Source of the DNA: a virus
DNA: 43,611 nt
IMG/VR virus record: IMGVR_UViG_3300003886_000236
Location: 1-43,611 of that record
Reading direction: 5' to 3' (one strand)
Shown here: positions 460-43,611 of the stretch, one piece after another
Position numbering within the stretch: the stretch's first letter is position 1
Layout: each line of letters opens with the position of its first letter
Notes under the pieces: generated by a model
Seen by the model: the letters and a program-made list of their open reading frames with translations, nothing else
The model's database searches: none
What the model was told of the DNA's origin: nothing
Program-made: the position numbers and the translations under genes

Positions 460-1266
460 GTGAAATCCTTTAATGTCATAACGGGTGTGCCGCGCAGTGG
501 ATCTACTTTGCTGTGCAACATACTCAATCAGAATCCAGAGTTCTATGCCAGTTCTACGAGTCCGATCACTGAACTACTCAGTACATTCGTGCATCAGTGC
601 AGCAATACCCCTGAGATTCAAGCGTGGCTTGCCGACGACTCAGTTGGGGTCACTGAACGTCTGACGAATATGACAAGGAAGATGTTGGAGGAGTGGTATT
701 CTCACAAGTCGGGTGTCGTCTTCGATAAGTCTCGCGGCTGGACGTTCCATGCGTTGCTACTGCATCAGATCTTCCCAGAGGCTAAGATTATTGTCTGCGT
801 CCGCGAATTGAGAAACGTATTTGCGTCTGTCGAGAAACACCATCGGGCTAACCCGATATTCGATTCTGCCAGTAGTCCCTTAGAGAAGACGGTCTTAGAT
901 CGCGCGGATAAGATGATGTCCCCGGAGGGTCGGATCGGGCAGAGCGTCGTCGGTCTCCAAGATCTGATGAGCCGGGGGTCTGATCGAGTCTACATTCTTC
1001 AGCATGAGGCTTTCACGATAGATCCAGTTACGAAGATGCGAGAATTGTATGACTTTATAAAGGAGCCGTATTTCGAGCATGACTTAACGAGTATTGACAA
1101 CGTCTCTACTGATCTTGACGCTCTGTATCTGAATAAGTTTCCCCATGAGGGAAGTGGATCAGTCAGGAAGACAGATAGAAATGAATGGAAGAATTATTTG
1201 ACCCCAGAGTTGGGGGATTTGATCTACCGACGATATCCGCAGTATAACACTGCGTTTGGCTATTGA
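460..1266 (+). CDS. Sulfotransferase family protein
   Basis: A 268-residue protein beginning at GTG right after the fibre stop. Residues 8-18 read TGVPRSGSTLL, the 5'-phosphosulfate-binding loop of PAPS-dependent sulfotransferases (Sulfotransfer_3 type). Around residue 110 the block VRELRNVFASVEKHH matches the family's second nucleotide-binding segment (R-x-P/L-R-x-V-x-A-S). Such enzymes transfer sulfate from PAPS to a hydroxyl or amine of a carbohydrate, lipid or protein. The acceptor cannot be read from sequence. Because it sits between a tail fibre and virion genes, it may modify host surface glycans or a virion component. Family assignment is strong; substrate is unknown. Confidence 0.85.
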   Translation: MKSFNVITGVPRSGSTLLCNILNQNPEFYASSTSPITELLSTFVHQCSNTPEIQAWLADDSVGVTERLTNMTRKMLEEWYSHKSGVVFDKSRGWTFHALLLHQIFPEAKIIVCVRELRNVFASVEKHHRANPIFDSASSPLEKTVLDRADKMMSPEGRIGQSVVGLQDLMSRGSDRVYILQHEAFTIDPVTKMRELYDFIKEPYFEHDLTSIDNVSTDLDALYLNKFPHEGSGSVRKTDRNEWKNYLTPELGDLIYRRYPQYNTAFGY

Positions 1267-3146: not shown

Positions 3147-4676
3147 ATGCCTAATGTAAGAATTTCTGACCTTCCCCCGGCAAGTTTGCCTCTTAGCGGA
3201 GCTGAACTCCTTGAGCTAACTCAGGGGGGATTCAGTCGGAACTCAACTGTTGACGATCTTGTATCAGCTTTACCCGCGCTGAGTGCTACTTTCTTGACTC
3301 TTACAGCTAGTCCCAGTTTACCGAATGAACGAATCTTGATGGCTGGGGTTGGTATCAGCTTTGTGGACGGAGGGGCCGGTGGACCTCTGACGATCAGTGC
3401 GATGGGATTGGGAGGTCAAGTTGACTCTGTTGTCGGCGGAGCGAATGTAAGTGTAGACGCCACTGATCCTGTCAACCCGGTCGTAAACTTAGATGTGGCT
3501 TTGGTTGGCATCTCTGTAAATGGCGTCACGCTGTCAGATGCGGGGGCTGCCGCAAATTACCTTGACGAGACTGGTAATTACTCTGTTCCGGCGGGTGGGG
3601 GAGGGGGAGGACAAGTTAATGTGGTCGTCGGCGGTGTCAACATTACTGTCGATGCAACAGATCCGGTCAACCCCCTCATCAACTTAGATGCCGCGCTTGT
3701 AGGAATCTCCGTGAATGGCGTCACTCTATCTGATGCTGGCGTAGCGACTAACTTCTTGGATGAGACAGGTAACTACTCCGTCCCTCCCGGAGGTGGAGTA
3801 CAGATTTCTGGCACACCTTCAAACAATCAGCTCGCAGTGTGGGTCAATGGGACAACCATAGAGGGCGAAAGTGAACTAACTTACAACGGGGGTAACAATC
3901 GCCTAACTCTCGCCGCCAGTCAAGCGTCGATGCGACTCGACGAAACGGACGGGGGAGGTGATTGTGGGTACTATCTGACGTCTACTACTACAGGCAATTT
4001 TGGAGGAGTTCTCTTATTTGATTCGTTTGCTGGTAACGGATTGACATTACGTCAGACGAGTGATTCAGGAACACTTCAAGATATTTGGATAAATATGTTC
4101 GCCAATGGTGCTGTAGATTTATACCATAATGGTATTCGAATGGCTGTTACTGCTACGTCCGCAAATGGTGGTTTTCGGGTCAACAACACTGCAACTGGAG
4201 GGGGTTTTGAGCGCGTGTTGACGACCTCTGACTTATCTTCTGTCGTAGCTACAGTTGACGAAGACGTTGATAGCAGTACGGTGTTGCAAAATGACAATGC
4301 TCTATTCTTCTTGGGGCTTCCGGTCGGTCGATATCGAGTTGAGGCGCTTATTATATATAGTGAGTTAACCGCCAGCGGTCAGGGGATCGGCTATGAATTG
4401 GACATGACTACTGGAGTCGGGAGCGGTACTTTTATTTCGGTCGTCCCGGCTACTACCGTAAACATTGGGGTTGGGGATAGTGGTGTTCACCCTCTGGGGT
4501 CGGCTGTAGAGATCTCACTGAACGCCAACACAACAATTCGAGGAATTCATATCACGGGAGTTTTAAGTGTAGCTGCGTCGGGGGATTTCCGGTTCAGATT
4601 CGCACAGTCGTCCAGCAGTGCAAACGCTGTTCGCCGACTGGCTGGTTCATATATGGTGTTAAGTCGTCTAAACTAG
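3147..4676 (+). CDS. Tail fibre/spike protein with tandem internal repeat
   Basis: A 509-residue protein. Residues 1-40 (PNVRISDLPPASLPLSGAE...) are a phage-fibre N-terminus that normally attaches the fibre to the tail. Residues ~91-151 and ~156-217 are two closely similar copies of one module (both containing GISVNGVTLSDAG and LDETGNYSVP), linked by a run of glycines. The last ~150 residues resemble the C-terminal domain of the second fibre at 7493-9247 (both have LFF...RYR.E..I.YS and end in VLSRLN or VLTRLS). The protein is a trimeric fibre candidate for receptor binding; the receptor is unknown. Confidence 0.7.
   Translation: MPNVRISDLPPASLPLSGAELLELTQGGFSRNSTVDDLVSALPALSATFLTLTASPSLPNERILMAGVGISFVDGGAGGPLTISAMGLGGQVDSVVGGANVSVDATDPVNPVVNLDVALVGISVNGVTLSDAGAAANYLDETGNYSVPAGGGGGGQVNVVVGGVNITVDATDPVNPLINLDAALVGISVNGVTLSDAGVATNFLDETGNYSVPPGGGVQISGTPSNNQLAVWVNGTTIEGESELTYNGGNNRLTLAASQASMRLDETDGGGDCGYYLTSTTTGNFGGVLLFDSFAGNGLTLRQTSDSGTLQDIWINMFANGAVDLYHNGIRMAVTATSANGGFRVNNTATGGGFERVLTTSDLSSVVATVDEDVDSSTVLQNDNALFFLGLPVGRYRVEALIIYSELTASGQGIGYELDMTTGVGSGTFISVVPATTVNIGVGDSGVHPLGSAVEISLNANTTIRGIHITGVLSVAASGDFRFRFAQSSSSANAVRRLAGSYMVLSRLN
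3417..3797 (+). repeat. Two-copy tandem repeat inside the fibre gene
   Basis: Two direct copies (about 3417-3599 and 3612-3797) encode near-identical ~62-residue modules separated by a poly-glycine linker (3594-3611). The nucleotide copies differ mainly at third codon positions, so selection has kept the protein repeat. In-frame recombination between the copies would change fibre length. Confidence 0.85.
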
Positions 4677-23324: not shown

Positions 23325-23794
23325 CAGAGATGAATCCAACTGTCAAAATTCAATATCTTCCCCACCAGAGTTTTGCTAACCCTAAATTCTTTTGCCAATT
23401 GTCGATGAGAGATTTTTTCTTTGCGGTATCTCTCTCGAATAATTGTAACATCTCCCTCAGTTAGTTTTGAAGCCGGATTGTCTTCGCCAGTGAGTCGAGC
23501 AGCGCGTCCTTTGTTTTTCATGTCTTCCATGTTATCTTGGTGAGTTCCGATGAAGAGGTGTTGAGAATTGACACACAGTCCATTATCGCAAGTGTGAAGT
23601 ACATCCAAGCCGGTTGGAATCTCCCCATAGTGAATCTCCCAGGAGAGACGATGGGCAAGAATTTTGCGACCGCCAACTTTCAGGTAACCTCGCTGACGCC
23701 TTGAGTCGCGATTCCTGATCGAGCCTATCCATAACCAACAAAAAGGAGTCTTCCGAACTTTACTCCAAAATCTTTCTTGAACGGAAGACTCCAT
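23324..23794 (-). CDS. HNH homing endonuclease (HNH_3 type)
   Basis: 156 residues. RFWSKVRKT..CWLWIG, AHRLSWEIHYGEIP, VLHTCDNGLCVNSQHLFIG and DNMEDMKNKGR are the hallmark blocks of the widespread phage HNH_3 enzymes: His in LHTC, Asn in VNSQHL, and the trailing His. The last ~50 residues (KLTEGDVTIIRERYRK... HRQLAKEFRVSKTLVGKI) form a helix-turn-helix that should contact the homing site. The gene sits between the ssDNA-binding protein and the helicase, coupled to the latter by ATGA, so it looks like an invader that kept operon coupling. Confidence 0.9.
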   Translation of the reverse strand: MESSVQERFWSKVRKTPFCWLWIGSIRNRDSRRQRGYLKVGGRKILAHRLSWEIHYGEIPTGLDVLHTCDNGLCVNSQHLFIGTHQDNMEDMKNKGRAARLTGEDNPASKLTEGDVTIIRERYRKEKISHRQLAKEFRVSKTLVGKILNFDSWIHL

Positions 23795-23803
23795 CGGTCA
23801 GTC

Positions 23804-24526
23804 TTAAGCGGCCTTTAACTCCTCTATGTCGACTTCCCAACTGTCACCTGCCGAATCTTCAATCCAAACCGTCTCATCCTCAATTTCGGTTACAACGCCT
23901 TTAACGGTGTCGCCCTCCTCATCTGAGAATTTCACTTTCGATCCGACGCGGATCTTCTTCGGCTTCTTGGCTCGGGAAGATTTCTTTTTGCCCCTTTTCT
24001 TTTTAGGAGTCTCTTCTTCTTCCTCTTCTTCTTCTGGTTCTTCTTCCTCCGGCTCCTCTTCTTCCTCTTCCTCGGGATCTTCCTCTTCTTCTTCAACTCC
24101 GTCAGCCGGAAGGAACCCGGTTATGCGAGGCTTGTCCTTGCCGTCATATTCTTCGTTGACGACTTCGATGCCGCACTCTTCCTCGAGGATATCTGAAGGA
24201 TCGATGTCCATGGGACCTTCTTCCACTTCGTAACCGATACACTCGAGGATAGTTCGGAGTCGCCACAGAGACTGCGGTTGCAACGAGATGTTATCGTAGA
24301 GCTTTCGGCCTTCCAGCTTCCCTTCAGTGATCTTCCACTGGCAAGACAGGTAGGGCTCACCGCTGTCTGCCCCTTCTTTTTCTTCGATCTTGACGAGAGC
24401 TGCCGTATAGTTCCCATCGGGAATTGGCATTCCTCCTCCGCTCTCGACTCCCTCGAAGTCAACACTGATCAAGCCTTTTTTCTTTCGGCTCCTTGAACTC
24501 TTCTTCTTGCTTTTGGCGCGTGCCAT
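23804..24526 (-). CDS. ssDNA-binding protein (DUF669-like) with acidic linker and KOW-like C-terminus
   Basis: 240 residues. A Lys-rich start (RAKSKKKSSRSRKKK) precedes a domain with PIPDGNYTAALVKIEEKEG, EPYLSCQWKI and GRKLYDNISL, the DUF669 pattern of phage single-strand-binding proteins. Residues ~140-172 are an almost pure Glu tract. This is followed by a Lys-rich patch and a beta domain (IRVGSKVKFSDEEGDTVKG, DSAGDSWEVDIEEL) resembling KOW/Tudor barrels. The acidic tract is in the middle rather than at the C-terminus as in typical SSBs. It adjoins the Sak4-like gene with a one-base overlap. Confidence 0.7.
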   Translation of the reverse strand: MARAKSKKKSSRSRKKKGLISVDFEGVESGGGMPIPDGNYTAALVKIEEKEGADSGEPYLSCQWKITEGKLEGRKLYDNISLQPQSLWRLRTILECIGYEVEEGPMDIDPSDILEEECGIEVVNEEYDGKDKPRITGFLPADGVEEEEEDPEEEEEEEPEEEEPEEEEEEEETPKKKRGKKKSSRAKKPKKIRVGSKVKFSDEEGDTVKGVVTEIEDETVWIEDSAGDSWEVDIEELKAA

Positions 24527-26389: not shown

Positions 26390-28930
26390 TCAAGTCCATT
26401 TTTCGTTGTCGTATTTTCCCCAAGGGCCAACCTCTAGCTCGGCTTCCATCGGCAAGCCTAGATCGATATTGAAAACTTCGAGAAGCTTGGGGTTACGAAT
26501 GATTGCTAGAATCTGGGGTAAGACTTCTTTTTTGTACTCTGTCTTGACGATTCCCAGAATAGCATCGTGGTGTTCCCCGACGAGTTTGAATTTACTGCGA
26601 TCTACGTCTTCATGTACTTCAACGATGACTGCTGCTTTATAATCACCGATAAAACCTTGGATGGGACTATTGATAGCCTGACGCTCAGCTTCCATTCTAA
26701 CCCATTTGTCTTTAGCTGTGATGCCTGGCAATCGACGAAGTCTGCCGAAAAGATTGCGAACGTAACCGTTCAACTTACATAATTTTTTCATCTTACTATG
26801 CCACTTCTTGAGCCCGCTATACAAACTGAAATAGGACTCTCTTGCTCGTCGAGCTTCTTCAAACGTAGCATACCACCCGTATTTGACTCTCGCTGTTTCC
26901 ATGAATTTGTTTTCAAACATTCCGTAGAGAAATCCGAAGTTGATGGCCTTCGCTTTCTTCCTCCCTTCCTTCCAACCATCCCAGATTTTCTGAGACCGCT
27001 CAGGGCCGGCTTCCAATAGGATTTCTACTGCATCGATTAGGGTGACTTCCCCCCAGTCGCGTTGTTCGGCGAATCCTTCTTTGAGGTGTTCGGCGGTGAT
27101 CCAAACATGTTCGACGTATTCACCAAGACCAGCGGATGTGAGAGTATGAAGAAGAGTTCGCCAATGGACGTCAATATTCTCGGTAAAGCACTTTCTGAGT
27201 TCGAGATCTCCAGAGGCAACCGCTGCAACACGGAGTTCAGCCTGAGAGATGTCTCCTTGGACAAACTCCCAACCAGAGGGAGCCGTAATGAGATTTCTAA
27301 TTTTACCGTCTCGCGGGATTGAGTGTATACGACTTGAATACCGTCCCGTGACAGTACCGTGGAGTTTGTATGTGACATAGAGCTTATCTCCTACCATGAA
27401 TTTCTTGAAGCCATTGATGTAAGTACTGATGAACTTTGCTCGTTCTCGGTATTGAAACAGCAGATCAACGATTTTGTGTTTACCCATCAGGGCCAGGAGC
27501 GCTGTCTCAGAAGTTGAGGGGTTCCCCTTCTTGGTATACTCCGCACACTTGATCCCCAGATCCTTATAGAGAGCTTCCCCGACTTGAGCGGGGGAATTCC
27601 AATTGATCTCCTTCTTCAAGGTTCGGTTGAGTTCTTGTTCAAGCTGGATTTTCTCCTGGAGCAACTCTAGACCGATCTCTTCCATCTCCTCATGGTCGAC
27701 TGTTAGTCCTTCCATCTCGGCATCTTCTATCGCACGAGCAGCAGGCATGACAAGTTTGTGGAATAATCGCCGGAGCGTAAGAGATTTCTTGAGATCTTTC
27801 CGGAAGATCTTCACTAATCTCAAAGTGTACCCCCCATCCTGAGCGCAGTATTTGAAGTTGATCATCGGGGTTTTGGACTTCCCCTGCTTGATCTTCAGAT
27901 CGATGTCGTATTCATCTACGTCTAGGAAATCACGACAGTTACTAGTTAGATCGTTCGCTGTGTTCTCATTCAACGTATGCGATGCGAGCATCCCATCGAA
28001 GTGTAAATGAAAGCTGCAGTCGCACATGACTCGGAGCCATTTGTTGTCAAACTTCCCGTTCCACGCATAAGCTTTCTTCTTAGTTTGTTTTTGGATCCTT
28101 ACTAGGTGCTGAAGTAACAAGGGTAAGGCCCGTCCCCGTCTCCATGGTCCCACTCCGTATTTGATAAAATCTGGATGCATAAATCCGGGAATAACCCAAG
28201 AGCGTTCGGGAAGGGCAATGCATATTGCAGTAATGTAACCTTTCTTGTCATGAGGGAAGAGTCCCGAAGTCTCAAGATCGAAAGCGAACTCTGAGGCTGC
28301 TGTGAATTCAGCAATAAACTTTTGTAAGTTTCCCCGTCTAACGATATTCCACTTAAATTCATTATCTGGAGTCGTTCCTCTAATCTTGTCCGCCAATCGT
28401 CTGATATCATTTTGGAATCCCGGTAGCTTGGAAGGATCTCGCATAGTATAAGCCGGATGAAAAGTCGGCATGCCAATGGGGTCGCGGCGAGTCGTGTCAG
28501 TAAACGGCTTCATATCAATCATCTCTCCGTGGAACTGATTGATCTTGGCTTTCCCTCTGAACATGACTTTTGTCGCCGGTACTCCGACAGTCATTACATA
28601 CTGTGGATCCGCTCGTTCTAATTCTTTCTCAAGATAAGGACGACATGCTTTGATTTCTTCTGCCGTAGGCGTGCGGTTTCCAGGCGGTCTACACTTAACC
28701 ACATTCGTGATGTAGGCACGTTTGTGTATCCCATTCTTCTCCAGCTCTCTTCGTAGAATCTTACCTGACTCTCCTTGGAACGGTTTTCCTGTTCTCTCTT
28801 CTGCTGCACCTGGCGCTTCTCCTATTATAACTAATTCGGCATTCCTTGGTCCATCCCCTGCTACACACACAGTTCCGGTTGTCGTTTCCGACAATCCACA
28901 TCTAGTACATCGGGGATTGAAGCTAGGCAC
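26390..28930 (-). CDS. Uracil-DNA glycosylase fused to family A DNA polymerase
   Basis: 846 residues from GTG 28930. Residues 1-185 are a family 4-like uracil-DNA glycosylase: Cys8/Cys11 and Cys80-x15-Cys96 for an Fe-S cluster, GEAPGAAEERTGKPF for the uracil pocket, and FHPAY for the catalytic loop. Residues ~205-395 are a 3'-5' exonuclease (FDLETSG; NGKFDNKW; YCAQD) with all three motifs intact. Residues ~480-846 are the polymerase: motif A GDISQAELR (~559-567), motif B KKAKAINFGFLYG (Phe at the Pol I 762 position), motif C EHHDAIL, where the usual HDE is HDA. An insert of ~50 residues lies before motif B. It is the replicative polymerase. Confidence 0.88.
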   Translation of the reverse strand: MPSFNPRCTRCGLSETTTGTVCVAGDGPRNAELVIIGEAPGAAEERTGKPFQGESGKILRRELEKNGIHKRAYITNVVKCRPPGNRTPTAEEIKACRPYLEKELERADPQYVMTVGVPATKVMFRGKAKINQFHGEMIDMKPFTDTTRRDPIGMPTFHPAYTMRDPSKLPGFQNDIRRLADKIRGTTPDNEFKWNIVRRGNLQKFIAEFTAASEFAFDLETSGLFPHDKKGYITAICIALPERSWVIPGFMHPDFIKYGVGPWRRGRALPLLLQHLVRIQKQTKKKAYAWNGKFDNKWLRVMCDCSFHLHFDGMLASHTLNENTANDLTSNCRDFLDVDEYDIDLKIKQGKSKTPMINFKYCAQDGGYTLRLVKIFRKDLKKSLTLRRLFHKLVMPAARAIEDAEMEGLTVDHEEMEEIGLELLQEKIQLEQELNRTLKKEINWNSPAQVGEALYKDLGIKCAEYTKKGNPSTSETALLALMGKHKIVDLLFQYRERAKFISTYINGFKKFMVGDKLYVTYKLHGTVTGRYSSRIHSIPRDGKIRNLITAPSGWEFVQGDISQAELRVAAVASGDLELRKCFTENIDVHWRTLLHTLTSAGLGEYVEHVWITAEHLKEGFAEQRDWGEVTLIDAVEILLEAGPERSQKIWDGWKEGRKKAKAINFGFLYGMFENKFMETARVKYGWYATFEEARRARESYFSLYSGLKKWHSKMKKLCKLNGYVRNLFGRLRRLPGITAKDKWVRMEAERQAINSPIQGFIGDYKAAVIVEVHEDVDRSKFKLVGEHHDAILGIVKTEYKKEVLPQILAIIRNPKLLEVFNIDLGLPMEAELEVGPWGKYDNEKWT

Positions 28931-41770: not shown

Positions 41771-41942
41771 CAGTTTCTTTCCATTGGTTAAACGATCCGA
41801 TGCATGCGCGGTTTCCACCGAATCCTTTCTTGCCATCTCCCATTAAGTCTTTGCGCTTGTGCAAGACAAAGTTCTGGTGACGGTCTACCGCTATTACTCG
41901 GTAGCAAGCGGGGCATACCCGGAAATCAGTGGCTTTGGTCAT
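41763..41942 (-). CDS. Small Cys/His protein, zinc-binding candidate
   Basis: 59 residues from ATG 41942, with GAGAG upstream. VCPACYRVIAVDRHQNFVLH and a later CIGS give Cys, Cys, His and Cys ligands typical of a phage zinc-ribbon family. Overlaps the first gene of the array by 17 bases. Function unknown. Confidence 0.55.
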   Translation of the reverse strand: MTKATDFRVCPACYRVIAVDRHQNFVLHKRKDLMGDGKKGFGGNRACIGSFNQWKETDD

Positions 41943-42201
41943 TGTCTCTCTTCCATAGCCATACGACAAAGGAACGGGGTAGGCTGTGATTGCGTGCGAT
42001 ACGTTTCATGTGAACGTCCGGTTGTTTGAACTCTTTGCGAATTGCCCTAAGAACCTTGGGTCGAAGGTCTCGTAGTAGTAGCTCGTTCTTGAGGCGGTTT
42101 AGTTTCTGACGGCGACGGCGATCCTGCACTTTTAGATCGAAGCGCACTTGCTTGTAGGCTTGGTGTGCTGTGCTCTCTGTGTGATATCTTTTTCTAGCCA
42201 T
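41926..42201 (-). CDS. Basic HTH-like protein, first gene of leftward array
   Basis: 91 residues from ATG 42201. Very basic (RKRYHTE..., RRRRQKLNRLKNELLLRDLR). Its C-terminal VHMKRIARNHSLPRSFVVWL looks like a helix-turn-helix in which the last helix would lie in the DNA groove. A perfect TATAAT ends seven bases before the ATG, which leaves almost no leader. Being first from the divergent regulatory region, it may be an early regulator. Function is inferred from composition. Confidence 0.55.
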   Translation of the reverse strand: MARKRYHTESTAHQAYKQVRFDLKVQDRRRRQKLNRLKNELLLRDLRPKVLRAIRKEFKQPDVHMKRIARNHSLPRSFVVWLWKRDNDQSH

Positions 42202-42207
42202 TGGGCC

Positions 42208-42213
42208 ATTATA
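42208..42213 (-). promoter_or_regulatory. -10 box for the leftward array (leaderless geometry)
   Basis: TATAAT on the minus strand with exactly six bases to ATG 42201. A start seven or so bases past the box would fall on the A of ATG, so the mRNA may be leaderless. No convincing -35 hexamer is present at 16-18 bases. Confidence 0.5.
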
Positions 42214-42320
42214 GGCCAATATCGGGCTAAAAGCGCCATATAGGAGCAAATAAAAAGGAGGTGGCTGAACGACTTAGCGCAGGAGGCGGGCAAGTTACTG
42301 ATATGACAGGGGTTTTTTAG

Positions 42321-42587
42321 GGCTTGTAATTCGTTTAAGTCACTACAAGCCAGTCGAGGCTGGTGTAGCTGTCGGATCTATAACGGTATTTTTGTCTACT
42401 TGTGTCCTTGTACGACTTGTTTAAGGGGTCGGGGGGTGAGAGACGGGAAATGTGGGTCGAGAGGTAACTAATAATTATATTCTCTCTGTATAATTACTGT
42501 ATAGACTACAAGTAGGGGAGTAAGTCGTTTATAATCGGGTAGTTAGCTGAGTATCATCTTGCTTGTAGTGACTTAAAAAGGTACAAG
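42321..42587. repeat. Cluster of TACAAG/CTTGTA motifs
   Basis: The hexamer TACAAG occurs six times in 267 bases: plus strand at 42344, 42507 and 42582; minus strand (read as CTTGTA) at 42323, 42407 and 42562. About 0.1 would be expected by chance. 42321-42328 and 42344-42351 also form an 8-bp perfect hairpin (GGCTTGTA/TACAAGCC). The arrangement suggests binding sites for a phage regulator, origin protein or packaging protein. This gene-free region (42202-42622) has no other coding signal. Confidence 0.7.
42334..42577. repeat. 17-bp perfect inverted repeat
   Basis: TTTAAGTCACTACAAGC (42334-42350) is repeated in inverse as GCTTGTAGTGACTTAAA (42561-42577), 17 of 17 bases, with 210 bases between the arms. 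The left arm overlaps the 8-bp local hairpin at 42321-42351, so the two pairings exclude one another. It lies between the divergent leftward and rightward units. Confidence 0.9.
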
Positions 42588-42610
42588 TGGCGTAGGTACA
42601 CCGTTTTCGG

Positions 42611-42616
42611 TATAAT
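42611..42616 (+). promoter_or_regulatory. -10 box for the terminase gene (leaderless geometry)
   Basis: TATAAT with exactly six bases to ATG 42623, mirroring the leftward box at 42208-42213. No good -35 hexamer is present at 16-18 bases upstream; a TACAAG motif ends 23 bases upstream of the box. No ribosome site lies between the box and the ATG. Confidence 0.5.
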
Positions 42617-42622
42617 GAGACT

Positions 42623-43177
42623 ATGGCTAAGAAACTCTCTAAGAGACCTCTTCGCAAGAAGAAAGGCACTGTTGACATTGGCACTTTCTTGCCTATGGTT
42701 CCTGATGTAGTCAAGGCTATTGCAATGCAAGGCACTACTGACGATGAGATGGCTTTGATGTTCGGCTTGTCTCCAAAGACTGTTGAAGCATGGCGCAAGT
42801 ACTACCCTTCATTTGACAAAGCTTTGGAGGAAGGCCGAACAGTAGCTGACTTGAAGGTCATTCAAGCATTGCACCAAACAGCTGTGGGTAGCATACGCAA
42901 GAAAGATGTCTTAGTCAAGATTCGCACAGGCCATGGTGCTGGTGAATTCTCTGAAGACGTTGAGATACACACGATCACTGAAGAGATTCCCCCTGAAACC
43001 AATGCCATCAAGATGTGGCTGCAGAACAGAGATCCCAAACGATGGAACCGCGCTGCTCGCCACGTTCAACTCACTGGCAAAGAGAACGAGCCAGGTATTG
43101 ACGTGAAGAACGAGAGTAAGGCTGAGCTCATGTCTTCTATTCTCTCCCTGATTCAACCTAAACCTGACGGTGTATAA
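42623..43177 (+). CDS. Terminase small subunit
   Basis: 184 residues. After a basic start (KKLSKRPLRKKKG), residues ~35-62 form a helix-turn-helix (GTTDDEMALMFGLSPKTVEA, then WRKYYPSF) with the small-terminase spacing, followed by DKALEEGRTVADLKVIQALH and a C-terminal acidic/Pro region with NAIKMWLQNRDPKRW, all typical of TerS proteins. It binds the packaging site and recruits the large terminase, which is not in this window. The DNA on either side (42202-42622 or 43178-43548) is the natural place for cos or pac. Confidence 0.75.
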   Translation: MAKKLSKRPLRKKKGTVDIGTFLPMVPDVVKAIAMQGTTDDEMALMFGLSPKTVEAWRKYYPSFDKALEEGRTVADLKVIQALHQTAVGSIRKKDVLVKIRTGHGAGEFSEDVEIHTITEEIPPETNAIKMWLQNRDPKRWNRAARHVQLTGKENEPGIDVKNESKAELMSSILSLIQPKPDGV

Positions 43178-43182
43178 ACGAT

Positions 43183-43212
43183 TCGACACGGGTGCCTCGT
43201 TCGTTCTATAAT
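43183..43212 (+). promoter_or_regulatory. Sigma-70 promoter downstream of the terminase gene
   Basis: TCGACA (43183-43188, five of six to TTGACA), an 18-base spacer, and a perfect TATAAT (43207-43212). This is the best promoter in the window. It points into the leader and the gene starting at 43549, presumably the start of the remaining late genes. Confidence 0.65.
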
Positions 43213-43254
43213 GTCCTTGCGATATCTATTGTACTGAACCTCAGGAGAATCCCT

Positions 43255-43275
43255 ATGACTCACAGACGGTACTAA
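43255..43275 (+). other. Possible six-codon leader peptide
   Basis: ATG 43255 follows an AGGAG ribosome site by six bases and opens a frame of only six codons (MTHRRY, then TAA). It lies ~36 bases after the predicted transcript start and 12 bases before a long stem-loop, the layout of a leader peptide. It may also be chance. Confidence 0.3.
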
Positions 43276-43286
43276 AGACACCGCAC

Positions 43287-43349
43287 TGAGGGACGCCTGT
43301 TTCTCCCTGCTATCCTCCCGATATCACATTGTGATCCAGGCGTCCTTCA
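43287..43349 (+). other. Long stem-loop in the 43178-43548 leader
   Basis: TGAGGGACGCCTG (43287-43299) pairs with CAGGCGTCCTTCA (43337-43349) over 13 bp with one G-U. The 37-base loop holds a second hairpin (ATCAC-ATT-GTGAT, 43323-43335). There is no U-run, so it is not a simple terminator. It could be a structured leader, an RNase III site, or part of a packaging site. The rest of 43350-43548 shows no gene. Confidence 0.6.
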
Positions 43350-43548
43350 CCTTATTGTCGTAGAGTCGGTGCGAGTTTTTGGTTTTGTCACCTTTGAGCT
43401 TGCGCGCATACGATGCCGTCCCGAAAGACTTGATAGGGCGGACCCAAGCGCTAAGGGTAATTCCGTCACGAGAAAGCCGGGAGACGAAGAAGCGTAGACT
43501 AGGCTTGACAGGAGGGAGAGACCCTATTTACTTCGAAAGGAGACTGAC

Positions 43549-43611
43549 GTGAAATACCGGGCGACTGAGCGATACATCACGGGTTGGACTGATCCCCGTG
43601 CACTGTATGAA
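43549..43611 (+). CDS. Start of an unidentified gene (3' partial)
   Basis: GTG 43549 has AAGGAG seven bases upstream and opens a frame running to the window's edge (21 codons). The visible part (MKYRATERYITGWTDPRALY) resembles the opening of a phage protein I cannot name; the RYxxGWTDPRxxY phrase is seen in phage structural genes. Too little is present to assign a function. Confidence 0.55.
   Translation, partial: MKYRATERYITGWTDPRALYE

Follow-up and report, generated by a model that had tools for sequence, protein, structure and literature searches.

The stretch of DNA analysed here (the window) is a linear virus record of 43,611 bases, in which a 421-bp gap at positions 42202-42622 separates two divergent ORFs: an ATG-started ORF on the minus strand (41926-42201) and the terminase small subunit gene terS (phrog_309) on the plus strand (42623-43177), which heads the rightward unit. 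The block to the left of the gap comprises small genes, a primase region, a helicase gene and a UDG-PolA gene (26390-28930, minus strand), whose single product unites a uracil-DNA glycosylase domain, a 3'-5' exonuclease and a family A DNA polymerase, while the rightward block consists of terS together with packaging and structural genes. The gap is also present in an independent contig of 17,115 b (G001, locus L002), which is identical to window positions 42112-43611 (100% identity across 1,500 bp) and then runs on to TerL, portal and capsid; where uniqueness counts for repeats and dyads are given below, they refer to 59 kb of sequence of this virus. A short ORF (MKYRATERYITGWTDPRALYE...) downstream of terS (43551-43611, continuing in L002:1440-1617) resembles the C-terminal end of the major capsid protein of the family (YKSTERYIPNWTDPR; 50% over 38 aa, E 4e-7), and this capsid-like part is followed by a hydrophobic stretch. 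Near the left end of the window lies a gene for a sulfotransferase-family protein (460-1266, plus strand; Pfam E 2e-18).

The gap contains an inverted repeat whose 17-bp arms (42334-42350 on the plus strand and 42561-42577 on the minus strand) are exact reverse complements, as established by direct comparison and by a second scan. An arm of this length was reached in none of 300 dinucleotide shuffles of the gap (mean longest arm 7.9), and in the 59 kb of the virus no other exact inverted repeat combines arms of at least 13 with a span below 450 nt. Also present are an 8-bp hairpin (42321-42328/42344-42351) and six TACAAG hexamers, at 42344, 42507 and 42582 on the plus strand and at 42323, 42407 and 42562 on the minus strand, against an expectation of 0.17 (Poisson P ~3e-8). 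The initial annotation had reported all three of these features, as well as a gap of some 420 bases between divergent units beside the small terminase gene, and in each of these respects it was accurate; what it had overlooked is that the repeat features, although real and beyond chance, are not independent, as the 17-bp arms, the hairpin and all but two of the six hexamers are parts of two inverted copies of one dyad.

Dyad 1 (CTTGTAATTCGTTTAAGTCACTACAAG; 42323-42349, plus strand) has the form CTTGTA-N15-TACAAG with half-site centres 21 bp apart, and it is this element that was described as the 8-bp hairpin. Dyad 2 (CTTGTACCTTTTTAAGTCACTACAAG when read on the minus strand; 42562-42587) is its inverted copy, of the form CTTGTA-N14-TACAAG with centres 20 bp apart, and is situated directly upstream of the terS promoter described below. 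Both match the half-site bases at 12/12 positions, and they are inverted relative to each other and approximately 238 bp apart; with up to one mismatch and a spacer of 14-15 allowed, the 59 kb yielded no further match. The long inverted repeat results from the inverted orientation of the second dyad copy, and the TACAAG count overstates the evidence since four of the six hexamers derive from one duplicated element. The half-site spacings correspond to two turns of B-DNA, which would suit a dimer bound on one face of the helix. The two hexamers outside the dyads are an isolated half-site at 42407-42412 (minus strand), with GTTTAAG after it as also in the dyads, and the copy at 42507, which may end a third, degenerate dyad (42485-42512, plus strand; 2/12 mismatches, spacer 16, ending in ACTACAAG) that overlaps a TATAAT; this third element is weak, since the 59 kb contain 12 such matches.

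An imperfect inverted repeat of 96 columns in the gap (score 56 against a shuffle maximum of 35) likewise derives from the dyads; taken by itself, the interior is borderline (P 0.034). The number of repeats by itself is unremarkable genome-wide, as coding repeats at ~23.7-24.4 kb score above the gap; repeated 8-mers are denser in the leftward coding region at 23700-24420 than anywhere else in the genome. That the repeat pair was found in one virus only might suggest coincidence or an assembly artefact, an explanation that is refuted by the identical independent contig and by the shuffle and Poisson tests, and to which we attach a negligible probability.

Regulation by a structured RNA or by competing hairpins (a riboswitch, attenuator or terminator) was also considered, as the whole 300-nt segment, on either strand, folds better than its shuffles (z -3.3 and -4.7). 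This stability comes from the 17-bp arms, however, and the interior has z-scores of -0.57 and -2.07; the repeat region lies upstream of both predicted transcription starts, Rfam gave no match at E up to 1 and no terminator was found in the gap. The RNA-structure reading was rejected on the fold scores of the interior and the negative Rfam result, and we judge it highly improbable. The competition between local and long-range pairings that the initial annotation had advanced as a mechanism is similarly unsupported, the interior between the arms not being clearly above shuffles; since the arms are inverted copies of a dyad, their pairing is a by-product.

A further set of elements in the gap, absent from the initial annotation, consists of five perfect TATAAT hexamers, where 0.10 would be expected (P ~8e-8). 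One precedes the ATG of terS (42611-42616, plus strand; TATAATgagactATG) and another that of the leftward gene (42208-42213, minus strand; TATAATggcccaATG), each by 6 nt and without a Shine-Dalgarno sequence, and both are predicted to be leaderless promoters. The three others are found at 42489-42494 (plus strand), at 42530-42535 (plus strand; 17 bp downstream of the TACAAG at 42507) and at 42474-42479 (minus strand; with TATACA at a distance of 18 bp, 10/12 consensus bases), and thus promoter elements face both ways out of the gap. A Shine-Dalgarno sequence accompanies 24 of the 44 genes of the window and is absent at both divergent starts. Since a -10 element at 6 nt would place the start of transcription at or beside the A of the ATG, the transcripts of both divergent genes are probably leaderless. 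Caulobacter commonly produces leaderless mRNAs, of which 375 have been found (PMC4117421), and as the closest cultured relatives of this virus infect Caulobacter, this counts in favour of the leaderless promoters. A good -35 element was not found at the promoters of the gap, except perhaps at the minus-strand one at 42479, and the absence of a strong -35 would fit, without proving, dependence on an activator.

The first gene of the leftward operon (41926-42201, minus strand) encodes a basic protein of 91 aa that is a candidate regulator. In a single-sequence structure prediction (mean pLDDT 83), a long N-terminal helix (residues 11-45) is followed by a three-helix HTH (residues 48-58, 65-71 and 76-88). 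A Foldseek search with this model gave no significant match (best E 0.6), and the weak matches obtained were nearly all HTH DNA-binding proteins. A relative that is 65-90% identical (G002) has a partial homologue of the HTH protein at the end of its contig, with the HTH motif kept; this contig stops inside the HTH gene and so does not include the gap. The 91-aa protein would be the simplest candidate for binding the dyads, with TerS, which also has an HTH, as the alternative.

In the collections searched, no other record carries the dyad pair, and no homologue was found that is close enough to this virus and covers the gap. The queries TerS, primase and the 36719 protein matched only the same virus, G002 and distant forms. 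A search of viral contigs for the 16-mer core returned nine other matches, all single and without a second half-site or copy, and a relaxed dyad pattern returned six single matches without a second copy among viral and genome contigs, the viral match being located within an ORF; both sets were judged to be due to chance. Within these collections, the dyad motif is therefore private to this virus.

Based on its capsid protein, the virus groups with Caulobacter phages RW, GB2A, RLK and KcrB (77%), while Roseobacter phages CRP-901/902 and Pelagibacter phage HTVC023P are more distant; compared with RW, GB2A and KcrB, its major capsid protein is 77% and its TerL ~47% identical. We regard it as a lytic-type phage related to RW, in which the labels early (replication) and late (packaging, structure) for the two blocks derive from gene content only. 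RW, HTVC023P, G009, G012 and DSL-LC04 likewise have a divergent gap adjoining the terS block, and it is these five, among nine other gaps tested, that contain repeats above shuffles, the comparison gaps having been chosen by eye as a divergent gap near terS with gene starts taken partly from a simple ORF caller. In the same shuffle test, neither repeats nor inverted repeats were in excess in the gaps of QDWS535, CRP-901 and CRP-902, and that of Pag-Yong1 was only mildly enriched in repeats (P 0.013), with no inverted repeat. The comparison with related phages proposed in the initial annotation thus yielded a repeat-rich gap on the terS side in five relatives, each with an unrelated motif of its own: approximately nine copies of TTTTCCGGTTT, oriented both ways, ahead of a MarR-like gene and terS in G012 (L188, reverse strand, 3959-4291), approximately six copies of ACTAGGAAA in HTVC023P, TTGGCAC dyads and AGGCTTGCAA in RW, GTATCACTG in G009, and in DSL-LC04 (L194:16876-17518) two inverted copies of TTCCTATAG(G)ATACACTCTCTNNNAATTCTATTT approximately 190 bp apart (score 63 against a shuffle maximum of 39). 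The papers located report no function for the terS-side gaps of HTVC023P or DSL-LC04. The layout recurs while the sequence does not, a pattern that would fit operators, iterons or pac sites changing with their protein without choosing between them.

The iteron-like arrays in the matching gaps of G012 and HTVC023P are among the evidence for a replication origin, in which an initiator would bind the dyads or iterons and the AT-rich stretch at 42465-42505, located between the two dyads, would serve as the melting region. The cumulative GC skew also has its minimum at the gap (~41-42 kb), but this minimum coincides with the change in gene direction, so that replication and transcription are not separable by skew. 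Moreover, the gap contains no DnaA box within one mismatch and no good IHF consensus, and no replication gene adjoins it, the primase and polymerase genes being 7 to 16 kb away. An origin at this position is, on balance, unlikely.

A genome end or packaging site is a little less unlikely than an origin, though still well short of probable. Here the terminase would cut in the gap, a direct terminal repeat spanning terS would end there, and the dyads would position TerS. Several relatives have terS beside such a gap, and in RW, GB2A and KcrB an identical terminal repeat of 2,940 bp, annotated in the GB2A and KcrB records, starts within a terL-like gene, extends across terS and ends, at record base 2940, in the matching divergent gap; these three phages count as one observation because they are close kin. 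In RW, the region between terS and the full terL (L019:11117-13919) holds a terL-like fragment and a methyltransferase gene, and one end of the terminal repeat lies within that fragment. By position, ends of the RW type would predict a genome end in or near 42202-42622. Against this, the TerS of this virus is not detectably like that of RW (no tblastn match) and packaging sites go with TerS, for which reason a genome end stays a rival or a second function of the gap. The window sequence also reads through the gap, the end of the RW terminal repeat falls between the RW repeats and not on them, and packaging leaves the promoter features unexplained. A clustering of contig ends at the gap was considered and dropped, since to the eye the ends near the portal gene appeared scattered.

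The gap is a real, non-random control region, and we consider it somewhat probable that it represents a divergent promoter/operator region between the leftward early and the rightward late operons, one that would set early against late transcription. The designation of the locus as a regulatory hub in the initial annotation is well supported by the duplicated dyads, the five TATAAT hexamers, the promoters at both start sites and the adjoining small HTH gene, while its three proposed functions all remain and can now be ranked, with an operator/promoter ahead of a genome end and a genome end ahead of an origin. A host sigma-70-type RNA polymerase would initiate transcription of both operons at the ATG or immediately beside it, and the dyads would be bound by a dimeric regulator, for which the HTH protein encoded at 41926-42201 is the simplest candidate and TerS the alternative. 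Dyad 2, centred at approximately -48 from the predicted terS start and immediately upstream of a promoter without a good -35, would switch the rightward unit, dyad 1 and the half-sites would act on the internal and leftward promoters, and looping between the two dyads is possible. Activation and repression by the dyads would look alike at the level of sequence. We counted against the operator reading the distance of ~135 bp between dyad 1 and the predicted leftward start and the lack of a good -35 at the gap promoters. In its favour we counted the corresponding divergent layout by terS in RW and HTVC023P, the two inverted element copies of DSL-LC04, and the repeat-rich gaps of the five relatives, in which a private motif for each is expected if operator and regulator change together.

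It is doubtful, though conceivable, that across this large podovirus-like family a single region combines the roles of transcription switch, packaging start and, possibly, origin through a fast-evolving private motif. If true, the motif would be read by the adjoining regulator or by TerS, and exchanges of terS would carry the repeated element along as part of one module. Hundreds of contigs were matched to the large family of phages of aquatic and other bacteria in which this virus falls (relatives of RW, HTVC023P and CRP-901), and how these phages control transcription and where their genomes end has been little studied. For such work the region offers short, exact targets, namely two sites of 26-27 bp, two predicted starts and one candidate regulator of 91 aa, and the recurrent layout of a repeat-rich divergent gap by terS is testable in cultured Caulobacter phages.

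Concerning known systems, the end region of RW, GB2A and KcrB occupies the same place, a divergent gap with repeats that heads the terS block, but its repeat motifs differ, the TerS proteins are not detectably related and an end in this virus is a prediction from position. The gaps of HTVC023P and DSL-LC04 flank terS or its block in the same divergent arrangement with motifs unrelated in sequence, DSL-LC04 sharing with this virus the presence of two inverted element copies. Divergent early/late promoter-operator regions of phages, such as lambda OR or those of the P2/186 type, have promoters in both directions and several dyadic operators. This virus differs from them in that there is no evidence of lysogeny, its regulator is a candidate only, and its dyads are inverted and ~238 bp apart rather than adjacent; it resembles them in its divergent units, two-way promoters, repeated dyadic operator and adjoining gene for a DNA-binding protein.
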